A stretch of DNA of 38,156 bases from Deltaproteobacteria bacterium (GTDB taxonomy: Bacteria > Myxococcota_A > UBA9042 > DTJE01), in contig VGRB01000005.1 in the NCBI GenBank assembly GCA_016875475.1, forward strand, positions 1 to 38,156, read 5' to 3'. Position 1 is the first letter of the stretch, and every line of letters starts with the position of its first letter. The position numbers were made by a program, and so were the translations under genes. Below, one piece after another: positions 4,341 through 37,636 of this stretch. Below the pieces are notes generated by a model. The model was not told where the DNA came from. It worked only from the letters and a program-made list of their open reading frames with translations, and ran no database searches.

Positions 4341-4595
4341 TCAGGCCGAGCGGTCGGCCGACGCGGAGCGGATCCGCTCGTACAGGGCGTCCGGCGCGAT
4401 GTCCACGCCGTTCGGCCAGCACGGGGCACCCCATTCCGCGAGCCGCACGCGCGCGAAGAACGCCGGATCCTTGAGCGGCTCGAAGACGGGCCCGTTCATC
4501 CTGCCTGCGAGGTCGTCCTCTCCTTCTGTCCCGTCGTCGAAGCGGACGAAGAGCCGGTATGGGTGCCGCGCCTCGAGGTACACGATGCGTTCCAT
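4341..4595 (-). CDS. DUF2442 domain protein
   Basis: This 84-residue protein begins MERIVYLEARHPYRLFVRFD, followed by a short acidic turn and GPVFEPLKDPAFFARVRL, and closes with the WGAPCWPNGVDIAPDALYE block. That last block (W...WPNGxDIAPDxLY) is the hallmark of DUF2442. I use the ATG at 4595 because the domain starts there. It begins 2 nt after the stop of the DUF4160 gene, within one minus-strand operon. DUF4160-DUF2442 pairs are common in accessory regions and have been proposed as toxin-antitoxin-like modules. The biochemical role is unknown, and DNA binding by DUF2442 is only a suggestion. Confidence 0.85.
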   Translation of the reverse strand: MERIVYLEARHPYRLFVRFDDGTEGEDDLAGRMNGPVFEPLKDPAFFARVRLAEWGAPCWPNGVDIAPDALYERIRSASADRSA

Positions 4596-4897: not shown

Positions 4898-5093
4898 CGA
4901 CCCGCGGCGGGCAACTGCATGAGGGCATTGCCTGCCGCCGCAACGGACGTCGCGGGTCGCACCACGCGCCGTAGTGCACGCAGCGGCCGTCCGTGGTCAC
5001 GTGGTGGCACTCCTTGTGGAGCCCGTCGGACGGGTCGAGCAGGCAGGGGCGGTCGTCGAGGTCCGCGCGGCCCCGCACCAGGCGCACGAGCAT
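4893..5093 (-). CDS. Putative small Cys/His-rich protein (66 aa)
   Basis: This ORF fills most of the 355-bp gap between DUF4160 and the methyltransferase. From ATG 5093 the minus-strand codons up to GAWCDP end almost without exception in G or C, the pattern of true genes here, while the last 20 codons lose that bias. The product has regularly placed Cys and His (RPC, then KECHHVTTDGRCVHYGAWC), suggesting a small metal-binding knuckle. No clear ribosome site precedes the ATG, and the bias continues weakly upstream without a standard start. It may therefore be the 3' remnant of a larger gene. I do not recognise the family. Confidence 0.4.
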   Translation of the reverse strand: MLVRLVRGRADLDDRPCLLDPSDGLHKECHHVTTDGRCVHYGAWCDPRRPLRRQAMPSCSCPPRVV

Positions 5094-5122
5094 GCGCAGT
5101 GGCCGTCCGTGTCGCAGGACCC

Positions 5123-5131
5123 TGGTATACT
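5123..5131 (+). promoter_or_regulatory. Extended -10 (TGGTATACT) for the mod-ATPase-res operon
   Basis: TG-n-TATACT is an extended -10 element about 80 nt before the methyltransferase ATG. Similar TG-n-TAnnnT strings precede the SNF2 gene (16784) and galK (37658). No -35 is evident. Confidence 0.45.
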
Positions 5132-5213
5132 CGCGCTCGTTGCGGACGGGCGGAACGGGCTCGGTCGGCTTGCGCGACCGTGGCGACGGCCCGGGACGAG
5201 GAGGCCGCTGGCG

Positions 5214-13056: not shown

Positions 13057-16000
13057 TCACGGCTGCGGGACGAGGTCGAAATCGATCGTCGGCGGCGCCA
13101 GCACGGACACGGCGCCGGGGCCGCCGAGCACACCGGCCCGCGGGTCGGCCGTGCCGCCGACCACGAGGACGGTGTCGTCCGGGAGCAGGACCGCGGCGTG
13201 CCCCACCCGGACCAGGTCCGGGGCCGCGATCGGGATCTCCACCTGCGCGGCCGGGGCCGGGTCGAAGTCCAGCGCGCACGCGGTCGCGACGCCGCCGGCG
13301 AAGTCGGTGAGCCCGCCCACCAGCGTGACCGAATGGCCTTCCCCCCCGGCGGTCGCGGTGTGCAGGACGCGGGCGGCGCACGGGGCATCGACCGGCGCCA
13401 TCTCGGCCTCGAGGGCCAGGTAGGCCATCCTCAGCGCCTTGCCTGCCGGGGGATCGAGCTTCCAGCCCCCGAGTCCGGATCCGGCGGCGAGTCCCGATCC
13501 GCCCGCGATCAGCACGCGGGACGCGCCCACGTCCGTCGCGGTCGCGAAGTAGCGCGTCGCCCCGAGGCTTCCCTCCGCGAACGCGCCGAGCACGCCTTGC
13601 GCCTGGCGGGACGACTGCCGGAACACGTCGTAGGTCCCGGCCCTGTCGCCTCCCACAAGCACGACCTGGGACAGGCCGAGCGAGGCCGGCGCGACCGCCG
13701 CCCAGGCCGGCGCCACCCGCTGGAAGGACAGGTAAGGTCCCTCCGGGAGCAGGCCGCCCGCGCCCTCGTTCGCCCACGGCGCCCACAGATCGCACCTCCG
13801 GTAGCCCGCGTCCGGGTCCACGGGCAGGGTACCGCCGCCCGCGACCAGCACGGACCCGTCCGCGAGCGGGATCGCGGACGCGAACGCGCGCCCGAGCCGC
13901 ATCGCGTCGGGCTCGCCGTCCGTCCGGGCCGGCGCGGCGAACGTCGCCGTGGCCACGTCGAAGACCTCGTACGACGCGATCGAGTCCGCGCCGTCCCAGG
14001 CGAGCGGGAAGGCCCCGTCCTTCAGGAACCGGACGGATCGCGAGCCGCCGAACAGGAGGACCCGGCCGCCGCCCGGACCCGGGACGAACACGGCCGCGTG
14101 CGCCGCGCGGCCCTCGGCCATGCGGGACTCCACGGGGACGAACGCCCGGGTCACGGGGTCGTAGAGGAACGCGGCATCCGACGGGTGGTCCCACACGTTC
14201 GCGGGATCGCCGGGCGTGGCGGCCGTGAAGCCGCCCGTGACCAGGACCCTTCCGTCCCCGAGCCGGACCGCGGACGGGAACGCCCGGCCGGTCAGCTCCG
14301 CCGGGGGGGGGATCGGCGTGGAAGTCCCGACCCGCCAGAGCGTCAGGTCGAGCGGCGTGGTCCCGCGGGGGACGGCGAGGTCGCGCCTCCGCGCGATCCA
14401 CTTCGGCGTCGGGCTGTCCGTGGTCCGGCCGAGCACCGTGACCGTGACGTCGGGCCGCGCCGGGACGCCAGGGAGGTCGAGTTCGTCGCACGCCTGTTCC
14501 TCGCGCCGGGCGACCTCCTCGTGGTACCCGGTCAGCGGCCGGGGCGCGGTCGCGACGGCGGTGCAGACCTCGGGCCCCGCCTCCTCCCCGAGCCGGTGCA
14601 GCCGGATGGACAGGGTGCCGGTCGCCCTGGTCGCGACCGACGGGGTCGCGGGGCAGATCCCGACCCGCTCGCCGGCCTGGAGGGCGCGCGAAAGCCGGAT
14701 CGCGTTCTCCAGGTGGAGCCCCGTGGTGAGCGCCGCCGGGCACCCCGGGTCCTCGATCAGGTCGTAGTCCCCCGCGGTCCCGTCCGTCCCCCCCGCGGCC
14801 ATCGCGTGCCAGAGGCCGTCGGTCCCGACGCGGTAGACGCGCAGGCCCCGGTCGGGCCAGAGCGTGCCGGGCACGCAGGCGGACGGGCCGGACGCGGCGG
14901 CGGCGGCGCGCGCCAGGTCGACCGCCCCGGCCGTGAGGGGGCCGTCCCCGCAGATGTTGCCGGTGCGCCCGTTCGGGCCGAACGCGCGGGCCACCTCCAT
15001 GTAGCGCGCCCCGAGGTCGGCCTTGCCGCGCTCGCTCGCGCAGACGTAGGTCAGCGGCGAGTAGGCGGTGGGCTGCGGGAGACACTTGCAGTCCCGGAAG
15101 CGCCGGCGGACCCGGTCCTCCTCGCCCGCGGGCACGGGTGACGTCGGGGTCCCGGCGACCGCGTCCCCCATGGTCGCGGCATACAGGACCCGCGCCGGGT
15201 CGGGCTTGAGCGTCTTCAGCCGGTTCGCCGCCTCGCCGGTCGGGACGAGCGGCCCGGGCGCCTTCCCGCACGTGCCGTCCGACAGGCAGCCGTCGTGGTC
15301 CGCGAGGCAGCCGCACGTGCCGTACTGCTCGGCCTTGACCGCCCCGTCCGTGGACGAGCAGTCCTCGCCGTCCGACACGAGCACCACGAGCAGGGTCGCG
15401 TCCGGCCGGTGGAACTCCCGCGCCTGCCCGGCGTTCTCGCCGGCCGGGTCGAGCGCCATCCAGGCGGCCCGCAGTCCCTGGTAGTGGCCGCCGCACGGGC
15501 TCCAGTGCGCGCCCACCATCTCCATGCAGGAGAACAGGCGTTCGGCCACCCGGCGCCGGAGGGCGTCGTCATCCAGGCCGCTCCACCGCGGGTCCCCGGC
15601 CCAGGAGCCCTCTTTCCATTTCCCGACCCACGTCGCCACGGCCTCGGCGTCGAGGACCTTCGGGCCCTCCTCGGCGGGGGGGCAGGAGGCGGTCGGAGGA
15701 GGGAGAAGGCAGCCGGCGTGGGAGTAGTCGCCGCCCTTGTAGAGGCAGCGGTAGGACGGCTTCCCCTGGTCCGCGATGCACACGTCCCCGCAGCGGGGGG
15801 CCGGGTCGCAGACGAGCGTGCACAGGAAGTCCTGCCTCGGGAAGTTCGCGCCGGCGTATCCCTTCGCCGGGTCGCCAGGGTACGTGCAAGTCGGGTGGCA
15901 CTCGGACGCCGAGCACACGCGGCCGCACCGCTCCTCGTCGAACAGGTAGTCGCGGCAGCGCGCGAGGCAGTCTCCGGGGGGCTCGCACCCGTCGGGGCAG

Positions 16001-16677
16001 CCGTCCGCCGGGACGCCGAACACGCGGGCGCAGGCGGCGGGTGCGGCGGCCTTGTCGCACTTGTAGCGGCATTGCGAGTTCACCACGAACAGGACGTCGC
16101 CCTCGTACGGATCGTCGCCATGGACGGCCGGTTTGTCGCAGGAGTACAGGAACTTCGCCGGCTTGTCCTCGCAGACCCAGTTCTGCGGGTCCAGGCCCGC
16201 CAGCTCGGGCCGGTCGGCGCAGTCGTCCGTCCCGTCGGTGCGCTTCACGCACGGGAGCACGCGCTTCTCCACGCATTTCGGGGAGATGTCGTTGTCCATC
16301 AAGGGCGAATACACGAACTTGCCGCGCACGTGCGGCTTGTCCTTCGGGCACACATCCTGGGTCGTGATCGCGAGGCGCAGGTCCACCGGCCCGGCCTCCT
16401 CGATCGCGGACAGGAAGCCGGGGAACTCGGCCGCGAGCTGGTGCCGTTCCGGGCACATCGATGTGGATGCGTCCACCATCCAGAGGACGTCGAGCTTGAA
16501 CGGCCGCGGCTCGGGGTCCGCCGGCACGCACGCGGGATCGGGGGGGCCGTCGAGGACGCCCGGCGTGCCGCCGCCGTCGGGCGCGTCCGCCCCGCCGGAC
16601 GAGCACCCTGCAACCGCCCGGATCGCCGCCAGGATCGCCGCCAGGATCGCGACCGCAGGAACCCGGATCCGCCGCAT
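13057..16677 (-). CDS. Exported vWA / Cys-rich / Kelch-repeat lipoprotein
   Basis: This 1206-residue protein has a signal peptide ending in the lipobox VAGC (Cys25), so it is probably lipid-anchored outside the cytoplasm. A von Willebrand A fold starts at LDVLWMVDASTSM, with MIDAS residues D69-x-S71-x-S73, and resumes later with VLVVLVSDGEDC. A Cys-dense insertion of roughly 200 residues (CDKAAAPAACARVFG, CGRVCSASECHPTC and similar) splits the vWA domain. The C-terminal 450 residues hold Kelch/galactose-oxidase-like blades: VLVTGGF, VLLFGGS, VLVAGGG, VVLVGGD, VLIAGGS, VTLVGGL, VLVVGGT. Such lipoproteins are abundant in Myxococcota; the function is unknown, perhaps adhesion or surface scaffolding. 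GGAGG precedes the ATG. It is divergent from the SNF2 gene. Confidence 0.85.
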   Translation of the reverse strand: MRRIRVPAVAILAAILAAIRAVAGCSSGGADAPDGGGTPGVLDGPPDPACVPADPEPRPFKLDVLWMVDASTSMCPERHQLAAEFPGFLSAIEEAGPVDLRLAITTQDVCPKDKPHVRGKFVYSPLMDNDISPKCVEKRVLPCVKRTDGTDDCADRPELAGLDPQNWVCEDKPAKFLYSCDKPAVHGDDPYEGDVLFVVNSQCRYKCDKAAAPAACARVFGVPADGCPDGCEPPGDCLARCRDYLFDEERCGRVCSASECHPTCTYPGDPAKGYAGANFPRQDFLCTLVCDPAPRCGDVCIADQGKPSYRCLYKGGDYSHAGCLLPPPTASCPPAEEGPKVLDAEAVATWVGKWKEGSWAGDPRWSGLDDDALRRRVAERLFSCMEMVGAHWSPCGGHYQGLRAAWMALDPAGENAGQAREFHRPDATLLVVLVSDGEDCSSTDGAVKAEQYGTCGCLADHDGCLSDGTCGKAPGPLVPTGEAANRLKTLKPDPARVLYAATMGDAVAGTPTSPVPAGEEDRVRRRFRDCKCLPQPTAYSPLTYVCASERGKADLGARYMEVARAFGPNGRTGNICGDGPLTAGAVDLARAAAAASGPSACVPGTLWPDRGLRVYRVGTDGLWHAMAAGGTDGTAGDYDLIEDPGCPAALTTGLHLENAIRLSRALQAGERVGICPATPSVATRATGTLSIRLHRLGEEAGPEVCTAVATAPRPLTGYHEEVARREEQACDELDLPGVPARPDVTVTVLGRTTDSPTPKWIARRRDLAVPRGTTPLDLTLWRVGTSTPIPPPAELTGRAFPSAVRLGDGRVLVTGGFTAATPGDPANVWDHPSDAAFLYDPVTRAFVPVESRMAEGRAAHAAVFVPGPGGGRVLLFGGSRSVRFLKDGAFPLAWDGADSIASYEVFDVATATFAAPARTDGEPDAMRLGRAFASAIPLADGSVLVAGGGTLPVDPDAGYRRCDLWAPWANEGAGGLLPEGPYLSFQRVAPAWAAVAPASLGLSQVVLVGGDRAGTYDVFRQSSRQAQGVLGAFAEGSLGATRYFATATDVGASRVLIAGGSGLAAGSGLGGWKLDPPAGKALRMAYLALEAEMAPVDAPCAARVLHTATAGGEGHSVTLVGGLTDFAGGVATACALDFDPAPAAQVEIPIAAPDLVRVGHAAVLLPDDTVLVVGGTADPRAGVLGGPGAVSVLAPPTIDFDLVPQP
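16621..16650. repeat. 12-bp tandem repeat in the signal-peptide region
   Basis: GATCGCCGCCAG is repeated exactly twice with a partial third copy. Read on the minus strand it encodes the repeated AILAAILAAI of the lipoprotein signal peptide. Because the unit is 12 bp, copy changes would keep the frame and lengthen or shorten the hydrophobic core. Confidence 0.75.
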
Positions 16678-16703
16678 GGCGCCCTCCAGTTCTGCCCCCC
16701 GCC

Positions 16704-16720
16704 GGGAACCCGATGTTCCC
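16704..16720. promoter_or_regulatory. Perfect inverted repeat GGGAAC-N5-GTTCCC
   Basis: It lies in the 123-bp intergenic space between the divergent lipoprotein and SNF2 genes, 27 bp upstream of the lipoprotein ATG. Six perfect base pairs with a 5-bp spacer suit a dimeric repressor operator or a 5'-leader hairpin of the lipoprotein mRNA. The spacing does not match the common LexA box. Confidence 0.4.
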
Positions 16721-16783
16721 CCGTCCCCCCCGTCCCGTCAACCGGGGCAGCCTGGGGGAGCGCGAGCGCCTTCTCGGCCGTTG

Positions 16784-16792
16784 TGGTACGGT
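16784..16792 (+). promoter_or_regulatory. Extended -10 (TGGTACGGT) before the SNF2 gene
   Basis: TG-n-TACGGT ends only 8 nt before the ATG. If used, the transcript would be leaderless or nearly so. No ribosome-site motif lies between it and the start, which fits leaderless initiation. Confidence 0.35.
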
Positions 16793-16800
16793 TCGCGCCC

Positions 16801-19524
16801 ATGGACGCCACGTCACGCGTCGAGATCGTGCTCACGCCCGGCGGTCGCCTCGTGCTGTCGCCCTCGGAGGACGGCGTCCCGCTGGACCCCGCGACGGCCG
16901 GTCCGCTCCTCGCCGCGTTCGCCGACGGCACGGGCCCGGGCCTGCTCAGGCTCGGCGCGGGCGAGGTCGGCACGGCCCTGCCCGCGGTGCTCTCGTACTG
17001 GCGGGAGTTCGCGGCGCGGTACGTGACCGCGGTGTGCTCGGCGCCGGAGGCGGCGGACGGCGGGGAACGCGGGGGGGGGATCCGCGTGCCCGCGCCCGCG
17101 GCGGACGACCTCGCACCGCTCGCGCTCGCCGCGCCGCCGATGCGGGGCGCCGAGTACGTGACCCCCGACCTGCTCGCCGCGCTCTGGCGGCAGATCGACG
17201 GCGCGTTCATGGCCGCGCTCGCGGACTCCGGCAGGAGCGTCACCGAGCTGCTCAAGACCTTCCACCCGGCCTGGAACCTGGTCGGGCGCGTTCACTTCCA
17301 CCTCGCGGAGAACCGGAAGGATCCGGACCGGCCGTTCGCGTTCATGGCGACCTACACGACGCGCCTGTCCGCCCACGCGCGTGCGCAGCACCTGCCGCTC
17401 GGCCAGGCCCTCCGCGAGTACGCGGGCGCGGCGAGCCGCGGGAAGCTCCTGTCGCTGCTGGTGCCGGTCAACAACGCGGCGGAGTCGTGCCCCTGGGTCC
17501 GCGCCATGGTCGAGTCGAACGAGGTCTTCCACCCGCTCCGCTGGACCCCGCGCGAGGCGGTCCGGATGCTCCGGGACGCACCAGCGCTCGAGGCCGCGGG
17601 AGTGGTCGTGCGGATGCCTGCGACGTGGCGCGCGGGCAGGCCGTCGAAGGCGGTCGCGAAGGCCACGATCGGCGGCAATCGGCCGTCGAAGCTGGGCACG
17701 GACGGGGTGCTGGACTTCCATCTCGACGTCGCGATCGACGGCGAGCCGCTGACGGAGGCGGAGGTGCGCGACCTGCTCCGGGCGACGGACGGGCTCGCGC
17801 TCGTCCGCGGCGGTTGGGTCGAGGTCGATCCGGACCGCCTGCAGCGTGCGATCGACCGCCTCCGCGAGGTCGAGCGCGTGGCTCGTGCCGAGGGCCTGAG
17901 CTTCGCGGACGCCATGCGCCTGCTCGCCGGCGCGGGTCCGGACGCCGGGGGGGAGGAGGACGAGGACGGGACCGGGCGGTGGGCCGAGGTCGCGGCCGGG
18001 CCGTGGCTCCGGGAGACGCTCGCCGGGCTCCGCACCCCCGAGGGGCTCTCCGCGGTCGATCCGGGGGCGGCGCTTCGCGGCACGCTCCGGCCGTACCAGC
18101 AGGTCGGCGTCCGGTGGCTCCACCTCGTGTCGCGGCTCGGGCTCGGCGCGTGCCTCGCGGACGACATGGGCCTCGGCAAGACGATCCAGGTGCTCTCGCT
18201 GCTGCTGGTCCGCAAGGCCCGCGGCGAGACCGGCGGCCGCCCGAGCCTGCTCGTCGCGCCCGCCTCGCTGCTCGCGAACTGGGTCGCCGAGGCGGGTCGG
18301 TTCGCCCCGGACCTCCGCTGCCTCGTGGCGCACCCGTCCGCGATGCCGGCCGCGGACCTGAAGTCGCCCAGGGACGGCGTGCTGTCCGGGGCGGACCTCG
18401 TGATCACCTCCTACGGCGCGCTGCTCCGCGTGCCGTGGCTCGCGAGCACGGGCTGGGACCTGATCGCGGCCGACGAGGCCCAGGCGGTCAAGAACCCCGA
18501 TGCGAAGCAGACCCGGGCGCTGAAGAAGCTGTCGGGCCGCGCCCGCCTCGCGCTCACCGGCACGCCGGTCGAGAACCGGCTGTCCGACCTGTGGTCCCTC
18601 TTCGACTTCATCAACCCGGGCCTGCTCGGGTCGGCGCGCGAGTTCACCGCGTTCTCGAAGCGCCTCGCCGACCGGAAGCACAACGCCTACGCGCCGTTGC
18701 GTGACCTCGTGCGGCCGTACGTGCTGCGCCGGATGAAGACGGACAAGGCGGTGATATCCGACCTGCCGGACAAGACCGAGGTCAAGGCCTTCTGCCCGCT
18801 GACGCGCCGCCAGGCCGTGCTGTACGAGCAGGCCGTGCGCGAGCTGGCCGAGCAGCTCGACGGCGCGGACGGCATCCGTCGCAAGGGCGTGGTGCTGGCG
18901 GCCCTGATGCGGTTCAAGCAGGTCTGCAACCACCCGTCCCAGTGGCTCGGGGACGGGGCGTGGGCCGAGGCGGACAGCGGCAAGCTCGCGCGCCTGCGCG
19001 AGATCGCGGAGGTCGTCGCGTCGCGCCAGGAGAAGGTGCTCCTGTTCACGCAGTTCCGGGAGGCCACGGCGCCGCTCGCGGCGTTCCTGGGGGGGGTGTT
19101 CGGGCGGCCGGGGCTCGTGCTGCACGGCGAGACCGCGGTCTCGAAGCGGGCGGACCTCGTGCGCCGGTTCCAGGAGGACGAGTCGGTCCCGTTCTTCGTG
19201 CTGTCGCTGAAGGCGGGCGGGTCCGGCCTGAACCTGACGGCCGCGTCCCACGTGGTCCACTTCGACCGGTGGTGGAACCCCGCGGTCGAGAACCAGGCCA
19301 CCGACCGGGCGTTCCGCATCGGCCAGACCCGCAACGTGCTGGTCCACAAGTTCGTCTGCCGGGGCACGGTCGAGGAGAAGATCGACGCGCTGATCGAGTC
19401 GAAGCGGCAGCTCTCCCGCGACGTGCTGGAGGGTGGGGGCGAGGCGATGCTGACCGAGATGTCCGACGACGAGCTGATGCGGCTGGTCGCGCTCGACGTG
19501 CGGACCGCGATGCAGGAGGCGTGA
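16801..19524 (+). CDS. SNF2-family DEAD/DEAH helicase
   Basis: This 907-residue double-stranded-DNA translocase starts at ATG 16801. The first 400 residues carry the SNF2 helicase-associated region (VVVRMPATWRAGRPSKAVAK and following) found in bacterial SNF2 proteins. The motor has motif I DDMGLGKT (K460), motif II DEAQ (558-561), motif III LTGTPVENR, motif IV LLFTQFRE and motif V/VI GSGLNLTAASHVVH...ATDRAFRIGQ (about 825). The gene is followed 1 nt later by the SWIM zinc-finger gene, a partnership known in bacteria. Together they may remodel or process nucleoprotein complexes; a role in DNA repair or defence is possible but not shown. A G9 run (17071-17079) lies in frame within the linker of the N-terminal region. 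Confidence 0.92.
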   Translation: MDATSRVEIVLTPGGRLVLSPSEDGVPLDPATAGPLLAAFADGTGPGLLRLGAGEVGTALPAVLSYWREFAARYVTAVCSAPEAADGGERGGGIRVPAPAADDLAPLALAAPPMRGAEYVTPDLLAALWRQIDGAFMAALADSGRSVTELLKTFHPAWNLVGRVHFHLAENRKDPDRPFAFMATYTTRLSAHARAQHLPLGQALREYAGAASRGKLLSLLVPVNNAAESCPWVRAMVESNEVFHPLRWTPREAVRMLRDAPALEAAGVVVRMPATWRAGRPSKAVAKATIGGNRPSKLGTDGVLDFHLDVAIDGEPLTEAEVRDLLRATDGLALVRGGWVEVDPDRLQRAIDRLREVERVARAEGLSFADAMRLLAGAGPDAGGEEDEDGTGRWAEVAAGPWLRETLAGLRTPEGLSAVDPGAALRGTLRPYQQVGVRWLHLVSRLGLGACLADDMGLGKTIQVLSLLLVRKARGETGGRPSLLVAPASLLANWVAEAGRFAPDLRCLVAHPSAMPAADLKSPRDGVLSGADLVITSYGALLRVPWLASTGWDLIAADEAQAVKNPDAKQTRALKKLSGRARLALTGTPVENRLSDLWSLFDFINPGLLGSAREFTAFSKRLADRKHNAYAPLRDLVRPYVLRRMKTDKAVISDLPDKTEVKAFCPLTRRQAVLYEQAVRELAEQLDGADGIRRKGVVLAALMRFKQVCNHPSQWLGDGAWAEADSGKLARLREIAEVVASRQEKVLLFTQFREATAPLAAFLGGVFGRPGLVLHGETAVSKRADLVRRFQEDESVPFFVLSLKAGGSGLNLTAASHVVHFDRWWNPAVENQATDRAFRIGQTRNVLVHKFVCRGTVEEKIDALIESKRQLSRDVLEGGGEAMLTEMSDDELMRLVALDVRTAMQEA

Positions 19525-27639: not shown

Positions 27640-30600
27640 ATGAGGCTGATCAGGAACGGCGGGTCCGAGCGCGTCGTGGACGACCTGAGGCGCGCCATCG
27701 GCCCCGACGCGTCGCTGGACGTCGCGACGCCCGCGTTCTCGCTCCACGCGTTCGCCGAGGTACGCGACCTGCTCTCGCTGGTGTCCGCGGCCCGGCTGAT
27801 TTTCCCGCCGGGCGACCGGCTTCGCGATTCCCTGATGGGGGGGGAGCGCGACCGTGTGTTCCGCAACCGCCTGCTCGGCCCCTGGCTCGCCCGCGAGTGC
27901 TCCGCCTGGGCGGCTCGGAAGGTCGAAGTCCGCTCGACCGCCGCCGCGATCCCCCAATCCGTGCTGATCGCCCGGGACGCCTCCTCCGGGCGCGGCGGCG
28001 CCGTGGTCGGCGACTGCCCGTTCACAACGGAAGGGCTCGGGATCACGCCGGGAAACCCGCTCGCCCTCGTGCACGGGTCCGCGGTCCCGGAGGACGTCGC
28101 CGGGCTCGTTGCGTGGTTCGACGAGCAGTGGCGCCGGCTCCCGGACGGGGTTGCGGCGAAGGAGGCGTTCCTCGCGGCGCTCGCGGACTTCTCGGCCCCC
28201 CGCGCGCCTTCGCTCCTCTACCACCTCGTGCTGTTCCACCTGCTCGGCGGCGCGGGCGACGGCCTGGACGAGGACCGCGTGGTGGACGCGGCGACCGGCA
28301 TCCGGAACACTGTCGTCTGGCGGAAGCTGTACCGATTCCAGCGGGACGGGGTCGTCGGCGCGATCGACAAGCTCGCGCATCACGGCGGCTGCATCATCGC
28401 GGACAGCGTGGGCCTGGGGAAGACATTCGAGGCCCTCGCGGTCATCAAGTACCACGAGCTGCGCAACGACCGTGTCCTGGTCCTCTGCCCGAAGCGCTTG
28501 CGGGACAACTGGACGCTGTACCGCTCCAACGACCGGCGAAACGTCCTGGCCGCGGACCGGTTCCACTACGACGTCCTGAACCACACCGACCTGTCCCGGG
28601 GCGACGGCCTGTCCGGCGACATCGACCTCGCCCACGTGAACTGGGGCAACTACGACCTCCTCGTGATCGACGAGTCCCACAACTTCCGGAACAAGGCGAC
28701 GCGGCGCGACCGCGAGACGCGCTACGACCGGCTGATGCGCGACGTCATCCGCCAGGGCGTGAAGACGCGAGTCCTGATGCTGTCCGCGACCCCGGTCAAC
28801 AACCGGCTCGCGGACCTGAAGAACCAGATCGCGTTCGCCACCGAGGGTGACGACGCGGCCCTCCGGGGGCACGGCATCGGAAGCGTCGAGGCCACGGTGC
28901 GGCAGGCGCAGGCCCAGTTCAACCGCTGGCTGACCCTGCCGGATTCGGAGCGCAAGCCCCCGCGCCTGCTCGACATGCTGGGGTTCGACTACTTCCGGCT
29001 GCTCGACCTCGTGACGATCGCGCGCTCCCGCAAGCACCTGGTCAAGTACTACGGCACGGTGGAGACGGGCCGGTTCCCGGAGCGGTTGAAGCCCGTCAAC
29101 CTCAAGGCCGACGTGGACCTCGCGGGGGAGTTCCCGGCCATCCGGGTCATCAACGACGAGATCCGGCGGTTGAGCCTCGCGGCCTACGCCCCTCTGAAAT
29201 ACGTCCTGCCGCACCGGCAGGCGGCCTACGAGGCGGCCTACAACATCCCCGTGAAGGGGGGCGGCTCGGTCTTCCGGCAGGCGGATCGCGAGGAGAGCCT
29301 GGTCCAGCTCATGCGCGTCAACCTCCTGAAGCGCATGGAGAGTTCGGTCGTCTCGTTCGCGCTCACGCTCGAGCGCCAGCTCGCGGACGTGGACGCGATG
29401 ATCGCCCGGCTCGACGCGCCCGGCGAGTCGTTCGAGGACCTGGACATCTCGGACGTGGACATCGACGACCCCGCGTTCGAGCCGCTCCTGCTCGGCCGCA
29501 AGGTCAAGGTCCTGGTGCGTGACGTGGACCGGCGCCGGTGGCGCCAGGACCTGACGCTCGACCGGAACCGGCTCGCGACCCTGCAGTCCGCGGCTTCGGC
29601 GGTCGACCCCGGCCGCGACGCGAAGCTCTCGGCGTTGCGCGAGGTGATCCGCGAGAAGTGCCGCGACCCCATCAACCCGGGCAACCGCAAGCTCCTGGTG
29701 TTCACGGCGTTCGCGGACACGGCCGAGTACCTGTTCCGCGAGCTGTCGGGCCGGGCCGTCGCCGACCTCGGCCTGCACTGCGCCATCGTGACGGGCACGG
29801 GCGCGAACCGGACGACGCTGCCCGGCCTCGCGACGGACCTCGGCGCGATCCTGACCGCGTTCTCGCCCCGGTCCAAGGAGCGGCCGGCCGACCTCGCGGG
29901 CGAGGGCGAGATCGACCTGCTCGTCGCGACCGACTGCATCTCCGAGGGCCAGAACCTCCAGGACTGCGACTGCCTGGTGAACTACGACATCCACTGGAAC
30001 CCGGTCCGCATCATCCAGCGCTTCGGCCGCATCGACCGCATCGGGTCGCCGAACGAGCGCGTCCGCCTGGTCAACTTCTGGCCCAACATGGAGATGGAGG
30101 AGTACATCAACCTCGAACAGCGCGTCAGCGGCAAGATGGTCCTGCTCGACATCTCGGCCACGGGCGAGGAGAACCTGATCGAGCACCAGTCCGGCGACCG
30201 GATGAACGACCTGGAGTACCGCCGCAAGCAGCTCCTGAAGCTCCAGGAGGCCGTCATCGACCTCGAGGACCTGTCGAGCGGCGTGTCCATCGCGGACCTG
30301 ACCTTCAACGACTTCCGGATGGACCTGTCCTCCTTCGCGAAGGAGCACCCCGACGCGCTTCCGCGCCTCCCTCTCGGCTCGTTCGCGGTCATGACCGCGA
30401 ACGCCGCGGGCGCTTGGGACGCGGCCATACCGCCCGGCGTCGTGTTCTGCCTGCGCGCCGAGGAGCCGGCGGGGGGGCGGGATCCGATCGACCCAGGCTA
30501 TCCCCTGGCCCCCCACTTCCTCGTCCACGTCGGCGACGACGGCGCCGTGGTTCTGCCCTACACCCAGGCCAAGCCGATCCTCGACCGCCTGCGGCGCACC

Positions 30601-30894
30601 TGTCTCGGGCGCGACCTCCCCGACCTGTCCGCCTGCGAGCGGCTCGACCGCGCGACGCGGGGCGGAATGGACATGGCGCGCGTCCAGGCCCTGCTCGCCC
30701 GGGCCGTGGCGTCCGTCGCGGGGAAGGCGGAGGAGCGCGCGACCGCGAGCCTCTTCTCCCCGGGCGGCACGACCGGGCGGCCTGGCGAGTTCCGCGGCAT
30801 GGACGCGTTCGAGGTGGTCGCCTTCCTGGTCGTGCTTCCCGAGGCCGCGACGGGACCGTCGCCGGAGCCCCCCCGGGAGCGGCCGCCGTCATGA
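27640..30894 (+). CDS. SNF2-type helicase with degenerate PLD-like N-terminus
   Basis: This is a 1084-residue protein. Residues 1-180 have the layout of a phospholipase D-like domain (SLDVATPAFSLHAFAEVRDL, then AVVGDCPFTTEGLG and a FDEQWRRL helix), as in several helicases of defence islands. The HxK motif is missing: the expected position reads IPQSVLIARD, and the usual GSSNFT is GDCPFT. Nuclease activity is therefore unlikely. The motor has motif I DSVGLGKT (K261), DESH (344-347), MLSATPVNN, TDCISEGQNLQDCD and QRFGRIDRIGS (from 793). It heads a five-gene operon with DUF4391, Mod, RhuM and Res. I infer that it is a remodeller or translocase accessory to the type III system. A DrmD-like comparison is possible, but no other DISARM gene is present. 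Confidence 0.85.
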   Translation: MRLIRNGGSERVVDDLRRAIGPDASLDVATPAFSLHAFAEVRDLLSLVSAARLIFPPGDRLRDSLMGGERDRVFRNRLLGPWLARECSAWAARKVEVRSTAAAIPQSVLIARDASSGRGGAVVGDCPFTTEGLGITPGNPLALVHGSAVPEDVAGLVAWFDEQWRRLPDGVAAKEAFLAALADFSAPRAPSLLYHLVLFHLLGGAGDGLDEDRVVDAATGIRNTVVWRKLYRFQRDGVVGAIDKLAHHGGCIIADSVGLGKTFEALAVIKYHELRNDRVLVLCPKRLRDNWTLYRSNDRRNVLAADRFHYDVLNHTDLSRGDGLSGDIDLAHVNWGNYDLLVIDESHNFRNKATRRDRETRYDRLMRDVIRQGVKTRVLMLSATPVNNRLADLKNQIAFATEGDDAALRGHGIGSVEATVRQAQAQFNRWLTLPDSERKPPRLLDMLGFDYFRLLDLVTIARSRKHLVKYYGTVETGRFPERLKPVNLKADVDLAGEFPAIRVINDEIRRLSLAAYAPLKYVLPHRQAAYEAAYNIPVKGGGSVFRQADREESLVQLMRVNLLKRMESSVVSFALTLERQLADVDAMIARLDAPGESFEDLDISDVDIDDPAFEPLLLGRKVKVLVRDVDRRRWRQDLTLDRNRLATLQSAASAVDPGRDAKLSALREVIREKCRDPINPGNRKLLVFTAFADTAEYLFRELSGRAVADLGLHCAIVTGTGANRTTLPGLATDLGAILTAFSPRSKERPADLAGEGEIDLLVATDCISEGQNLQDCDCLVNYDIHWNPVRIIQRFGRIDRIGSPNERVRLVNFWPNMEMEEYINLEQRVSGKMVLLDISATGEENLIEHQSGDRMNDLEYRRKQLLKLQEAVIDLEDLSSGVSIADLTFNDFRMDLSSFAKEHPDALPRLPLGSFAVMTANAAGAWDAAIPPGVVFCLRAEEPAGGRDPIDPGYPLAPHFLVHVGDDGAVVLPYTQAKPILDRLRRTCLGRDLPDLSACERLDRATRGGMDMARVQALLARAVASVAGKAEERATASLFSPGGTTGRPGEFRGMDAFEVVAFLVVLPEAATGPSPEPPRERPPS

Positions 30895-31679
30895 GCATCG
30901 CCGCCGTCATCGCAGCCCTGGGCCTGCCCGATCGCGCCCGGGTGGACCGCCGGGTCCCGAAGAAGACGCTGCTCGAGCAGGCCCTCCCCGGACCCGCGGA
31001 CCGCCGCCTGCTGGGCGACGCGATCGCGGACCTGCTCTGGGTCGCCTCGCTCAAGCCCGAGACGATCGGCCTCCCCGCCTTCCGCGACACGGAGCGCGAG
31101 TACGCCGAGATCGCCGTGGTCGCCGCGACGCTCCGCGCGGCGCGCCGCGCCGTCCGCGTCGCGGAGCTGCTCCACCGCGCGATTCCGTATCCCGTGCTGC
31201 TCGTCGCGACCGCCGCGGACAGCGCGCGCGTGTCGATCGCCCACAAGCGTACCTCCCGGGGGGAGGACGGGCGCTTCGTCGCGGACGAGGTCCGCACGAC
31301 CGCCCCGTTCGACCCCGCCACCCCCGACCCGGCCGCTTGCGCATTCCTGCGCAGCCTCGCGCTCGCGTCCGCCGCCGCGTACGCCCGCGACCTGTTCGAG
31401 CTGTACGACGCCTGGGCCGCGCGGATCGACGCCCTGGCGGCGGCTGCGATCTCGGGCGAGTTCCGGGTCCCGCCGCCGAGCCCGACCGGCGGGGCCGCCG
31501 GGACCCGCGAGGCCGTTGCTTCCTGGGACGAGGCGACCCGGGAGCTGGCGAGCCTGCGGTCCCGGGCCGGGCGCGAGCCCGGGATCGCCCGCCGGATCGA
31601 GCTGAACCTCGCAATCCAGCGCCTCGAGGCGAGGCGCTGCGCGCTCTCGGAAGCCCTTCGGACAGAGGAGCCCCGATGA
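30891..31679 (+). CDS. DUF4391 domain protein
   Basis: This 262-residue protein begins at the ATG overlapping the helicase stop (ATGA). The family signature is clear: VDRRVPKKTLLEQ near the N-terminus, then WVASLKPETIGLPAF, EYAEIAVVAATLR, LLHRAIPYPVLLV and VSIAHKR. DUF4391 genes are repeatedly found between a helicase and the Mod gene of type III-like restriction loci. The activity is unknown. The C-terminal 60 residues form a predicted helix pair (EATRELASLRSRAGREPGI). It is probably a structural or assembly subunit, given its conserved place and strict coupling. Confidence 0.85.
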   Translation: MSIAAVIAALGLPDRARVDRRVPKKTLLEQALPGPADRRLLGDAIADLLWVASLKPETIGLPAFRDTEREYAEIAVVAATLRAARRAVRVAELLHRAIPYPVLLVATAADSARVSIAHKRTSRGEDGRFVADEVRTTAPFDPATPDPAACAFLRSLALASAAAYARDLFELYDAWAARIDALAAAAISGEFRVPPPSPTGGAAGTREAVASWDEATRELASLRSRAGREPGIARRIELNLAIQRLEARRCALSEALRTEEPR

Positions 31680-33541
31680 ACCCGATTTCGCCCGGCGACC
31701 CAGAAACCCGCAGCCCCGACGGGGTGGCCGACAACGTCGCGCGCCTGAAGGATCTGTTCTCCGAAGCGTTCACCGAGGGCCGCATCGACTTCGACGTGCT
31801 GCGCCAGCTCCTGGGCGCCGCCGTGGACGAGAGGGAGGAGAAGTACGGGCTCAACTGGCACGGCAAGCGGCGCGCCCGCCAGCTCGCGCTGACGCCTTCG
31901 ACCGGCACCCTGCGCCCGTGTCCCGGCGAGAGCGTGGACTGGGACACCACGCAGAACCTCGTGATCGAGGGCGACAACCTCGAGGTGCTGAAGCTCCTCC
32001 AGAAGTCGTACGCCGGGAAGGTGAAGCTCATCTACATCGACCCCCCGTACAACACCGGGAAGGACTTCGTCTATCCCGACGACTTCCGGGACAACATCGG
32101 CAACTACCTCGCGCTGACGGGGCAGGTTGACGGCTCGGGGAGGAAGCTCACGTCCAACACCGAGGCGTCCGGCCGCTTCCACACGGACTGGCTGAACATG
32201 ATGTACCCCCGGCTGAAGCTGGCGCGGACGCTGCTCCGGCAGGATGGGGTGGTCTTCGTGAGCATCGATGATGGGGAGTTGGCCAGCCTGCAAGCGATCA
32301 TGAACGAGGTCTTCGGGGAGGAGAACCGCTATTGCGTCGTCGCATGGCAGAAGAAGGACACGCCCTCGAACGATGCCCAGGGGGTTTCGACGACGCATGA
32401 GTACGTCGTCGCATACTCACGAGGTACGGAGTTCGTGCGTCGTCTGATCCCGCGAAGCGATGAGCAGCTCTCGGTCTACAAGAACCCCGACAACGACCCT
32501 CGCGGGGAGTGGACGCGCGGGGCACTGACACGCAAGGAGTATGTCGAGAAAGACTACTACCCCATCAGGAATCCAAGTGGGCGCGAAGTTCTTCCTCCCC
32601 CGGGGACGAGCTGGCGCGTGTCCCGCGCGACCCTCGATCGGCTGATCGCGGAAGACCGCCTCTGGTGGGGACGTGACGCTGACGGCGACATGCCGTTCGT
32701 GAAGAGATTCCTGTCCGAGGTCCAGGAGGGGGTCGTGCCGGTGTCCTGGTGGGGATACGAGTTCGCGGGGTCGAACAGAAACGCCAAGATGGAGATGCGC
32801 TCCCTGTTCGACGACCAGGCACCTTTCGACACCCCTAAGCCCACGAAGCTGATCGCCCGGATCTTGTCGATCGCCTCGACCGCCGACGACCTCGTCCTCG
32901 ACTTCTTCGCCGGCTCGGGCACGACCGGCCATGCGGTCATGGCGCAGAACGCCGCGGACGGCGGGAAGCGTCGCTTCATTCTCGTGCAACTACCCGAGCC
33001 GACGAGACAATCCGGCTACGCGACCATCGCCGACATCACCAAGGAACGCCTCCGGCGCGCGGGTCGCAAGGTCCGCGACGACAACCCCATGTTCTCCGGC
33101 GACCTCGGGTTCCGGGTCTTCAAGCTCGCCTCCTCCAACATCCGCGCGTGGGAGCCGGACCGGGCGCGGGAGGACGTGGTCCGGACGCTGGAGGACTCGA
33201 TCGACCACCTGAAGTCGGACCGGACGGAGCAGGACATCCTCTACGAGCTGCTCCTGAAGCTCGGCGTGGACCTGTGCGTGCCGATCGTGACCCGCTCCAT
33301 CGGGGGCATGGACGTGCACGCGGTCGGCGGGGGCGTGCTGATGGCGTGCCTCGCGACCCGCATCGGGCGGGAGGACGTGGAGGCGCTGGCGCTCGGCGTC
33401 GTGGCGTGGCACCGGGAGCTTGCGCCCGCGGGCGAGGTCTGCTGCGTGTTCCGCGACGCCGCGTTCGCGGACGACGTGGCGAAGACGAACCTCGCGGCGA
33501 TCCTGGATCAGCACGGGTTGAAGACCGTGCGGAGCCTGTAG
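31676..33541 (+). CDS. Type III DNA methyltransferase (Mod), locus 2
   Basis: This 621-residue beta-class adenine methyltransferase has DPPYNTGKDF (D122-Y125) before the AdoMet motif DFFAGSGTT (from 409). The N-terminal YGLNWHGKRRARQLA and WDTTQNLVIEGDNLEVLKLL strings are classic for type III Mod. Residues about 200-400 form the target-recognition domain, and their DNA is near 60% GC by hand count, against nearly 80% nearby. It starts at the ATG overlapping the DUF4391 stop. It should modify one strand of an asymmetric site and recruit the Res subunit encoded 1.1 kb downstream. Normally mod and res are adjacent; here a RhuM gene separates them. Confidence 0.93.
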   Translation: MNPISPGDPETRSPDGVADNVARLKDLFSEAFTEGRIDFDVLRQLLGAAVDEREEKYGLNWHGKRRARQLALTPSTGTLRPCPGESVDWDTTQNLVIEGDNLEVLKLLQKSYAGKVKLIYIDPPYNTGKDFVYPDDFRDNIGNYLALTGQVDGSGRKLTSNTEASGRFHTDWLNMMYPRLKLARTLLRQDGVVFVSIDDGELASLQAIMNEVFGEENRYCVVAWQKKDTPSNDAQGVSTTHEYVVAYSRGTEFVRRLIPRSDEQLSVYKNPDNDPRGEWTRGALTRKEYVEKDYYPIRNPSGREVLPPPGTSWRVSRATLDRLIAEDRLWWGRDADGDMPFVKRFLSEVQEGVVPVSWWGYEFAGSNRNAKMEMRSLFDDQAPFDTPKPTKLIARILSIASTADDLVLDFFAGSGTTGHAVMAQNAADGGKRRFILVQLPEPTRQSGYATIADITKERLRRAGRKVRDDNPMFSGDLGFRVFKLASSNIRAWEPDRAREDVVRTLEDSIDHLKSDRTEQDILYELLLKLGVDLCVPIVTRSIGGMDVHAVGGGVLMACLATRIGREDVEALALGVVAWHRELAPAGEVCCVFRDAAFADDVAKTNLAAILDQHGLKTVRSL

Positions 33542-33555
33542 CTCGGGGGGGACGG

Positions 33556-34594
33556 ATGGGGGACGGCAGGGAAGGCGGGACGGCGGGCACCGGGACCAAA
33601 GGGAGCGAGGCGACCGGCCGGTTCCTGGTCTATCGCGCCGAGGACGGCCGCACGCGCATCGACGTGCGGCTGGAAGACCGCACGGTCTGGCTCAGCCAGA
33701 AGCAGCTCACCGCGCTCTTCGGCAAGGCCAAGGGCACGGTCAGCGAGCACATCCGGCACGTCTTCGAGGACGGGGAGCTGGTCCGCGAGGCAACTGTTCG
33801 GCGTTTCCGAACAGTTCAAGTCGAGGGCGGTCGCGAGGTCGAGCGCGAGGTCGAGCACTACAACCTCGACGTGGTCCTGGCGGTCGGGTTCCGCGTGCGC
33901 AGCCCCGCGGGCGTGCGGTTCCGGCAGTGGGCCGCGGACAGGCTCAAGGAATACCTGGTCAAGGGCTTCGTGCTGGACGACGAGCGGCTGAAGGACCCGC
34001 GCGCCGGCGACTACTTCGACGAGCTGTCCCGGCGCATCCAGGACATCCGCACGAGCGAGCGGAGGTTCTACCAGAAGATCACGGACATCTACGCGACCAG
34101 CATCGACTACGACCCGGCCGACCCGCTGACCGCGCAGTTCTTCGCCACGGTCCAGAACAAGGTCCACTACGCAATCCACGGCCGGACCGCGGCGGAGGTG
34201 ATCCTGGACCGCGCGGACGCGGGGAAGCCGAACATGGGCCTGACCGCATGGCAGGGCGCGCGCATCCGGAAGTCGGACGTCGGCGTGGCGAAGAACTACC
34301 TCGCTGAGGACGAGCTTCGGGCGCTCAACAACCTCGTGGAGCAGTACCTTCGCGGAGGGACAGGCGGAGCGCCGCATCCCCATGACCATGCGGGACTGGA
34401 TCGAGAAGCTCCACGGCTTCCTGGCGCTCAACGACCGGGAGATCCCGGCGAACGCGGGCAGGGTCTCGGCCGAACTGGTCCGGGAGCACGCGGAGCGCGA
34501 GTTCGCCCGCTTCCGCGCCGCGGAGGACCGGGCGTTCGAGTCGGACTTCGACCGGGCGGTGAAGCAGTTGCCGCCGCGCAAGGACGGGCGGTGA
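33556..34594 (+). pseudogene. rhuM: RhuM-family protein gene, frameshifted near 34348
   Basis: From ATG 33556 the frame gives a clear RhuM (PF13310) protein: LEDRTVWLSQKQLTALFGKA (KilA-N-like DNA-binding start), HIRHVFEDGEL, HYNLDVVLAVGFRVRS and ALNNLVEQYL. At about 34348-34351 the conserved continuation FAEGQAERRIPMTMRDW switches to the +1 frame. A 2-nt loss (YLLFAEG-type original) explains this. The restored product is about 346 residues and ends ...AVKQLPPRKDGR at 34594. Without correction the ribosome reads about 80 unrelated residues and stops at 34626, oddly also after AVKQLPPRKDGR. It may be inactivated, recoded, or a sequencing error. RhuM proteins are linked to type I and III restriction loci; their role is unknown. 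Confidence 0.8.
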
Positions 34595-34654
34595 AGCAGT
34601 TGCCGCCGCGCAAGGACGGGCGATGAAGCGGTCGCAACCGCGCAGGAACGGGCG
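34559..34654 (+). repeat. Three 32-bp tandem units forming a stop-start ladder before res
   Basis: Units lie at 34559-34590, 34591-34622 and 34623-34654. The first two are identical over 32 bp; the third has diverged. Each begins GTGAAG or ATGAAG and encodes an 11-codon frame (VKQLPPRKDGR, VKQLPPRKDGR, MKRSQPRRNGR) whose TGA overlaps the start of the next unit. The last TGA overlaps the ATG of res (34655). AAGGA or AGGAA sits 6-7 nt before each next start, so every unit also supplies a ribosome site. The first unit is the 3' end of rhuM. Confidence 0.9.
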
Positions 34655-37636
34655 ATGAAGCTGCACTTCGAGCCGGACCTCGACTACCAGCTCCAGGCGA
34701 TCGAGGCGGTCTGCGACCTGTTCCGCGGGCAGGAGACGTGCCGCACCGAGTTCACCGTGACCTACGGCCGCGCGGCGGGGGCCGGAGGGGATCACCTCGC
34801 GGGCCTGGAGACCGGCCTCGGGATCGGGAACCGGCTGTGCCTGCTCGACGACGAGCTGCTCCGCAATCTGGACGACGTCCAGCTCCGCAACGGTCTCGAG
34901 CCGGCCGTGACGCTCGCCTCGCGCGACTTCACGGTCGAGATGGAGACCGGCACCGGCAAGACCTACGTGTACCTGCGCACGGTGTTCGAGCTGAACCGGC
35001 GGTTCGGGTTCACGAAGTTCGTCGTGGTGGTCCCGTCGGTCGCGATCAAGGAGGGCGTCTATCGCACGCTCGAGATCACGCAGGACCACTTCCGGAGCCT
35101 GTACGCGAACGTGCCGTTCGAGTACTTCCTCTACGACTCGACGAAGCTCGGCCAGGTCCGCAACTTCGCGACCAGCCCGCATCTCCAGGTCATGGTCGTG
35201 ACCGTCGGGGCCATCAACAAGAAGGACGTGAACAACCTCTACAAGGACCAGGAGAAGACGGGGGGCGAGCGGCCGATCGACCTGATCCGCGCGACGCGGC
35301 CGGTCGTGATCGTGGACGAGCCGCAGAGCGTGGATGGGGGGCTGTCGGGGGCCGGCCGGGACGCTCTCGGCAAGATGGACCCGCTTTGCACGCTGCGGTA
35401 CTCGGCGACGCACGTGGACAAGCACCACATGGTCTACCGTCTCGACGCGGTGGACGCGTACGAGCGGAGGCTGGTCAAGCAGATCGAGGTCGCGTCCGCC
35501 ACGGTCGAGGCCGGGCACAACAAGCCGTACGTGCGCCTGGTGTCCGTCGAGAACCGCAGGGGCGCGATCACGGCGCTCGTGGAGGTGGACGTCGCCGAGG
35601 TGCTCGGGGTCCGGCGCGTGGTCAAGACCGTCCAGGACGGCGAGCGCCTGAGGGACGTCACGAATCGCGAACTCTACGAGGACTGCCGCGTCGGCGAGAT
35701 CCGGGTCGAGAAGGGGAACGAGTACATGGAGCTTCGCGTGCCGGGCGGCGAGCACTTCCTGCGCCCGGGCGAGGCGTGGGGGGACGTGGACGCCACGGCG
35801 GTCCGGCGCGAGATGATCCGGCGCACGATCCGCGAGCACCTGGACAAGGAGAAGCGCCTGAGGCCGCTCGGCATCAAGGTGCTCTCGCTCTTCTTCATCG
35901 ACGCAGTCGACAAGTACCGGCGCTACGACGAGGACGGCCGGCCGGTCAAGGGCGAGTACGCGGTCGCGTTCGAGGAGGAGTACCGGCGGCTCGCGCGGCA
36001 CCCGGACTACCAGACGCTCTTCCACGAGGTGGACCTCGCGCGCGACGCGGCCGAGGTGCACGACGGCTACTTCTCGATCGACCGGAAGGGTCGCTGGCAG
36101 GACACGGACGAGTGCAACGAGTCCGGGCGCGAGGCCGCCCAGCGCGCCTACAACCTGATCATGAAGAGGAAGGAGGACCTGCTCTCGTTCGTAACACCGC
36201 TGAAGTTCATCTTCTCGCACTCGGCGCTGCGCGAGGGGTGGGACAACCCGAACGTGTTCCAGATCTGCTCGCTCCGCGACATCCGGACGGAGCTGGCGCG
36301 GCGGCAGACGCTCGGCCGCGGCCTGCGCCTGTGCGTGAACCAGGCCGGGGAGCGGCAGCGCGGGTTCGAGGTCAACACGCTGACCGTGATCGCGTCCGAG
36401 AGCTACCAGCAGTTCGCGGACAACCTCCAGAAGGAGATCGAGGCCGACACGGGCATCCGGTTCGGCGTGGTCGAGCCGCAGCAGTTCGCGGCGATCCCCG
36501 TCTCCTGCCCTGGCGGCGCCCGGAAGGCCCTGGGCTGGGAGGCGTCCAAGGCGCTGTGGGACCACCTGCGCGCGGCCGGTTACATCGACGGCAAGGGCAG
36601 GGTGCAGGACGCGCTCCGGCGCGCGCTCCGCGACGAGACGCTCGCGGTGCCCGAGGCGTACGCGCCGCAGCGAGTGGGCATCCGCGAGGTCTTGCGCAAG
36701 GTCGCGGGCCGGCTGGAGATCCGCGACGCCGGGGAGCGCCGGCCCGTGCGCCCGCGCGAGGCCGTACTCCACGGGTCCGACTTCAAGGCCCTCTGGGATC
36801 GCATCCGGGACCGGACCACATATCGCGTGCACTTCGATAACGAGCGGCTGGTCGGGGACTGCACGACCGCGCTCCGGGACGCGCCGCCAATCCCGAGGAC
36901 GCGGCTGCAGTGGCGCAAGGCCGACATCGCGATCGGCCCCGGGGGGGTCGAGGCGACGGAGCGCGCCGGGGCCGCAATCGTGGCCCTGGACGAGCCGGAC
37001 GTGGAGCTGCCGGACCTCCTGACCGACCTTCAGGACCGTACGGGGCTTACGCGGCGGACCCTGTTCCGGATCCTGACCTGGAGCGGGCGCCTGTCGGACT
37101 TCGCCCGGAACCCGCAGCGCTTCATCCAGGTCGCCGCGGAAGCGATCAACACCCGCAAGCGCCTCGCGCTCGTGGACGGGATCAAGTACCAGCGGGTCGG
37201 GGACGACGCGTTCTACGCGCAGGAACTGTTCGAGAAGGAGGAGCTGACCGGCTACCTCCGGAACATGATCGTGGACGCGAAGAAGTCGGTGTTCGACCAC
37301 GTGGTGTACGACTCCGGCACCGAGGCCGCGTTCGCGGACCAGATGGAGAAGAACGACGCGGTCAAGGTCTACGCGAAGCTGCCCGGGTGGTTCCGGGTCC
37401 CGACTCCGCTCGGCACGTACAACCCGGACTGGGCGGTGGTCGCCGAGACGGACGGCGCGGAGCGCCTGTTCCTTGTCGTCGAAACCAAGGGTGCGCTGCT
37501 GGCGGACGCGCTGCGGGAGACCGAGAAGGGGAAGATCGACTGCGGGCGCGCCCACTTCGCGGCGCTGGACGGGGTCCGCGAGAACCCCGTGCGCTACACG
37601 GTCGCGACCACCCTCGAAGACGCGCTGGCCACCTGA
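34655..37636 (+). CDS. Type III restriction enzyme, Res subunit
   Basis: This 993-residue helicase-nuclease has motif I METGTGKT (96-103), the type III-typical DEPQ box (221-224), RYSATH as motif III, and REGWDNPNVFQICSLRD with RQTLGRGLRL (from 550) as motifs V-VI. The C-terminal endonuclease is NPDWAVV (D925), then VVETKG (E943, K945). It uses ATP to move or switch on DNA after Mod finds its site and cuts when two unmodified sites meet. The ATG at 34655 overlaps the TGA of the last unit of the upstream 32-bp ladder, so its translation may depend on reinitiation. Length and motif spacing look intact. Confidence 0.95.
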   Translation: MKLHFEPDLDYQLQAIEAVCDLFRGQETCRTEFTVTYGRAAGAGGDHLAGLETGLGIGNRLCLLDDELLRNLDDVQLRNGLEPAVTLASRDFTVEMETGTGKTYVYLRTVFELNRRFGFTKFVVVVPSVAIKEGVYRTLEITQDHFRSLYANVPFEYFLYDSTKLGQVRNFATSPHLQVMVVTVGAINKKDVNNLYKDQEKTGGERPIDLIRATRPVVIVDEPQSVDGGLSGAGRDALGKMDPLCTLRYSATHVDKHHMVYRLDAVDAYERRLVKQIEVASATVEAGHNKPYVRLVSVENRRGAITALVEVDVAEVLGVRRVVKTVQDGERLRDVTNRELYEDCRVGEIRVEKGNEYMELRVPGGEHFLRPGEAWGDVDATAVRREMIRRTIREHLDKEKRLRPLGIKVLSLFFIDAVDKYRRYDEDGRPVKGEYAVAFEEEYRRLARHPDYQTLFHEVDLARDAAEVHDGYFSIDRKGRWQDTDECNESGREAAQRAYNLIMKRKEDLLSFVTPLKFIFSHSALREGWDNPNVFQICSLRDIRTELARRQTLGRGLRLCVNQAGERQRGFEVNTLTVIASESYQQFADNLQKEIEADTGIRFGVVEPQQFAAIPVSCPGGARKALGWEASKALWDHLRAAGYIDGKGRVQDALRRALRDETLAVPEAYAPQRVGIREVLRKVAGRLEIRDAGERRPVRPREAVLHGSDFKALWDRIRDRTTYRVHFDNERLVGDCTTALRDAPPIPRTRLQWRKADIAIGPGGVEATERAGAAIVALDEPDVELPDLLTDLQDRTGLTRRTLFRILTWSGRLSDFARNPQRFIQVAAEAINTRKRLALVDGIKYQRVGDDAFYAQELFEKEELTGYLRNMIVDAKKSVFDHVVYDSGTEAAFADQMEKNDAVKVYAKLPGWFRVPTPLGTYNPDWAVVAETDGAERLFLVVETKGALLADALRETEKGKIDCGRAHFAALDGVRENPVRYTVATTLEDALAT

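Follow-up and report, generated by a model that had tools for sequence, protein, structure and literature searches.

A 32-bp tandem array spans the junction between rhuM and res in a type III restriction operon, and we consider it likely that this array is a slippage insertion that was tolerated at the junction and is passed by ribosomes through ordinary reinitiation. In the window (the whole stretch of DNA analysed, 38,156 nt), the array had the highest TRF score, 162, the next-best array reaching 67, and 30 first-order Markov shuffles of the window gave scores of at most 79. The array is real and stands well above chance expectation.

Gene order and structure of the array

The genes of the run and the parts of the array are as follows; the break in rhuM was left unmended and coordinates are as assembled.

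27640..30894, + strand: SNF2/DEAD-type helicase gene, first gene of the run
30891..31679, + strand: DUF4391 gene (PF14335), upstream of mod; its own ATG shares 4 nt with the helicase stop
31676..33541, + strand: mod, type III methyltransferase; its ATG at 31676 shares 4 nt with the stop of the DUF4391 gene
33556..34626, + strand: rhuM (PF13310, PADLOC PDC-S05), frameshifted near 34350 as assembled
34553..34661, + strand: tandem array, 32-bp unit, 3.4 copies, spanning the rhuM-res junction
34553..34584, + strand: unit 1, native 3' coding sequence of rhuM (Arg-Ala-Val-Lys-Gln-Leu-Pro-Pro-Arg-Lys) and no start rung, as judged from alignment to RhuM relatives and a weak SD
34585..34616, + strand: unit 2, exact copy of unit 1, carrying the TGA (34592-34594) of the homology-supported rhuM frame within GTGA
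34591..34626, + strand: mini-ORF 1, 11 codons, GTG start, terminating in ATGA
34617..34648, + strand: unit 3, diverged copy, carrying the stop (34624-34626) of the rhuM frame as assembled
34623..34658, + strand: mini-ORF 2, 11 codons, ATG start, terminating in the ATGA of the res start
34655..37636, + strand: res, type III restriction subunit of 993 aa (PADLOC REase_III, 1298 bits; Pfam ResIII, RE_endonuc)

The run encodes, in one operon, a Mod with an N6/N4 methylase domain and a Res with helicase and endonuclease domains, which defines a type III restriction-modification system. Both the helicase-DUF4391 (30891) and the DUF4391-mod (31676) junctions are 4-nt ATGA overlaps. The original prediction spoke of a nuclease:methylase ratio; the gene directly before res is not the methylase but rhuM, which lies between mod and res. 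RhuM may act as a toxin in multi-level defence, a role put forward on the basis of its gene neighbourhoods (PMC3710099). At 15295-19524 and 4974-8093 the same window also codes for another SNF2 helicase with DUF3670 and for another N6/N4 methylase, a defence-island-like setting.

The predicted tandem units before res were recovered as three full units with exact coordinates, followed by a partial fourth unit of 13 bp that extends into the res start. Unit 2 matches unit 1 at every position, and unit 3 departs from both at 7 of the 32. The successive 4-nt stop-start overlaps with a change of frame at each unit were likewise confirmed: RTGA overlaps were located at 34559, 34591, 34623 and 34655, and 11-codon frames run exactly over 34559-34594, 34591-34626 and 34623-34658, after which res begins. 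Because the array straddles a -4 overlap, its period is necessarily 2 mod 3 (32 mod 3 = 2, as is necessarily the spacing from the in-frame rhuM GTG AAG to the res ATGA), and the ladder therefore follows by arithmetic with both proteins unchanged. The TGA within the res start is inherent to Met-Lys and was found in 76 of the 84 Res starts retrieved, whatever sequence precedes.

Homology to RhuM follows one frame until about 34350 and then another until the stop at 34592-34594 in unit 2, the second-frame part ending ...ESDFDRAVKQLPPRKDGR. Unit 1 aligns as the native RhuM C-terminus, including the conserved (E)SDFDKxVKxI motif; its GTG AAG at 34559 encodes the Val-Lys of DFDRAVKQ, where relatives have DFDKEVKR and DFDKAVKQ, and the DFDKxVK motif of two of these relatives (L025 and L057) aligns onto this GTG AAG. 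A ribosome site had been assigned to every unit; AGGA-type sites do precede three of the four starts, but none is clear ahead of the unit 1 GTG. Since this GTG lies in the RhuM coding frame and lacks a clear ribosome site, only two mini-ORFs were newly added, and the three-rung ladder first described is reduced to two added rungs.

The frame change in rhuM falls in 34320-34380, where the sequence has about 5 nt fewer than all RhuM relatives compared, so that rhuM is frameshifted as assembled; the assembled open frame, 33148-34626, closes in the unit-3 ATGA. In the homology-supported frame, by contrast, rhuM already stops in the first of the added units and keeps its last residues, and for this reason neither the RhuM C-terminus nor Res is affected by any number of units. 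A phase-variable restriction locus was considered and rejected, as a change in repeat number toggles no protein's frame when the homology-supported frame is used. A second, intact rhuM was found in the same genome (L094, G000:C235:6720-7718), with a 367-aa open frame and 61% identity to the L014 query.

The unit was confined to this locus, with no further match in the genome at 3 or fewer mismatches, and the exact 32-mer was absent from the viral contigs searched. RNA folding around the array was not in excess (z = 0.09). Each codon that differs between the two mini-ORFs alters its residue; judged from these differences, the peptide is under no apparent constraint, as expected of drift.

Junctions in relatives and proposed origin

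Nine distinct relatives with a rhuM-res junction were compared, and the repeat was absent from all of them. Seven (L007, L014, L022, L025, L081, L085 and L090) have a single -4 overlap, whereas L080 has a -1 overlap and L057 a gap of +109 nt. A comparable array was also looked for before the other Res starts tested, and none was found. As the junctions of relatives lack the repeat, the extra DNA is best explained by an insertion that arose in this lineage. Genomes of the same family gave no Res matches (the class has 52 genomes).

Other ladder-like arrays in about 1 Mb of related loci amounted to only about two copies of 17-20 bp. The array in L026 is situated where mod ends and is not directly followed by a gene start; in this locus (1190-1245 and 2607-2666) the mod stop region is doubled as two 20-bp GTGA units, and rhuM ends in a GTGA that overlaps an apparent second res start, the full res, at 4501, being present as well. 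In L005/L007 (G017), res is split in two matches that meet near codon 240 and looks broken as assembled. L014, L088 and L089, from genomes that belong to two families (G332, G358), have RhuM proteins and rhuM-res junctions identical to one another, which suggests recent transfer or contamination.

We infer that the ancestral rhuM-res junction had one ATGA overlap and gained 64 bp in two successive rounds of slippage duplication, between 13-bp near-repeats spaced by 32 bp. The candidate near-repeats are CGGGCGGTGAAGC inside rhuM and CGGGCGATGAAGC at the junction, which match at 12 of 13 positions at the repeat period and form a natural place for slippage. The first and older copy would be the present unit 3, since diverged, and the second and more recent one unit 2, which is identical to unit 1. 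Unit 2 has GTGA, as in rhuM's own codons, and unit 3 has ATGA, as at the junction, in agreement with what two-step slippage predicts. A 12/13 match 32 bp apart is unlikely by chance, and the array boundaries may therefore have been homogenised later. As the copied segment would cover the -4 overlap, the insertion would become a series of 11-codon mini-ORFs in which every stop codon overlaps the start of the following frame, and it would have been tolerated, nearly neutrally, because the RhuM C-terminus and the Res protein stay unaltered.

Probable initiation across the array and alternative readings

A 4-nt overlap is a recognised context for termination-reinitiation (PMC6728339, PMC12548453); among tested gene pairs with -4 overlaps, 13 of 14 showed strict coupling (PMC6728339), and a short ORF just upstream is able to supply the following gene with ribosomes (PMC12548453, section 11). 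Under the tolerated-insertion reading, ribosomes leaving rhuM would probably restart at 34591, 34623 and 34655 in turn by ordinary termination-reinitiation, and the AAGGA/AGGA sites may assist reinitiation or allow fresh initiation. Pairing energies were computed with a generic anti-SD, as the draft genome yielded no 16S: the predicted pairing is -3.2 kcal/mol before the unit 1 GTG (34559), which is background level, -7.0 kcal/mol at units 2 and 3, which is only among the best 15% of background positions, and -4.3 kcal/mol at res, which is not above background (mean -4.1). Res could also start independently from its own AGGA, though the predicted pairing there matches background. The influence of the array on Res level is probably modest.

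The original prediction inferred that a change in copy number could tune the nuclease:methylase ratio; in such a regulatory ladder a fraction of the ribosomes would be lost at each rung, and the unit number, variable by slippage, would set the amount of Res relative to Mod. Identical tandem units are indeed liable to copy-number change, the identity of units 1 and 2 marks the last expansion as recent, and -4 overlaps couple translation (PMC6728339, PMC12548453). Nevertheless, mod and res are separated by rhuM, relatives manage without the array, the region has no unusual RNA structure and the mini-ORF peptide shows no constraint. In addition, the rung sites outpair the res site with the anti-SD (-7.0 versus -4.3 kcal/mol), so that rungs could recruit ribosomes as well as lose them, and in the type II PvuII system, where an overlap before the endonuclease gene was tested, translation of C and R was not coupled and the overlap was not regulatory (PMC2997769). 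We therefore regard a regulatory ladder as unlikely.

A different role would be a frame-independent rescue, with a stop-start site for every reading frame inside 64 bp: ribosomes leaving even a frameshifted rhuM would stay coupled to res, and the array would be kept because rhuM is broken. The first stops met by the three incoming frames are those at 34560 (GTGA), 34592 (GTGA) and 34624 (ATGA), the assembled rhuM frame, once past its break near 34350, stops precisely on the unit-3 ATGA, and no equally compact three-frame site exists elsewhere in the window. This property, however, is automatic for any three-copy array with a period of 2 mod 3 and needs no selection. The frameshift may precede or follow the duplications, and may stem from faulty assembly or be a variant within the population. 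We regard retention for rescue as very unlikely. If the three-frame RTGA property does work, a frameshifted rhuM could remain coupled to res. A broader proposal, that the mini-cistron array is a copy-number-adjustable, frame-independent coupler that holds translation of the nuclease gene at a set level whatever the rhuM exit frame, the frameshifted rhuM included, is improbable. Also very unlikely is a wrong unit number or rhuM frameshift in the draft genome (721 contigs, 89% completeness), for which the identity of units 1 and 2 could speak, since the 109-bp array is short enough for ordinary short reads, the 7 differences in unit 3 mean that at least one extra copy is no stutter, and the rhuM break is a lack of about 5 nt relative to relatives rather than a single-base homopolymer slip.

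Comparison with known systems

If the tolerated slippage insertion holds, the locus shows that two slippage steps can turn an ordinary gene junction into a chain of overlapping mini-genes with both proteins unharmed. It would also mean that a MIRU-like arrangement can be reached locally, and would serve as a simple, naturally occurring test of the number of successive terminations and restarts open to a ribosome.

The nearest counterparts are the mycobacterial interspersed repetitive units (MIRUs), which are short, hold a mini-ORF and have -4 overlaps (PMC12548453, section 11). At senX3-regX3 of mycobacteria they occur as 77-bp and 53-bp units whose make-up is strain-dependent (PMC4213456). 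As at senX3-regX3, the present array consists of tandem short units between co-directional genes, each containing a mini-ORF with a -4 overlap to the following gene; the neighbouring proteins are unaltered in both, and the periods of 77, 53 and 32 are all 2 mod 3. Tandem MIRU copies are linked to one another by the same -4 overlap, and both mini-ORFs of the present array have -4 overlaps at each end, as in MIRU. In contrast to MIRUs, which are genome-wide repeats thought to be mobile, the present units are 32 bp long, lie within a restriction operon and are copies of the local rhuM end at one locus. A true MIRU was accordingly rejected as an identity for the array, a copy of local sequence at a single locus rather than a dispersed element (3 or fewer mismatches).

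Ordinary -4 (ATGA) coupled pairs share the same overlap with an SD-like site inside the upstream gene, and this single-overlap state is seen in the relatives, whereas here the junction itself has been copied to give three overlaps in succession. Translation delivered by minigenes or uORFs, such as the axe-txe minigenes and bicistronic expression designs (PMC8708949, PMC12548453), resembles the present mini-ORFs in that a short ORF just upstream can deliver ribosomes, but these systems do not form a chain of tandem, overlapping copies at the junction of two genes. Several relatives in GTDB genomes are type III restriction-modification operons that likewise place rhuM between mod and res; they share gene content and order with the present locus, which differs from all relatives examined in carrying the repeat.
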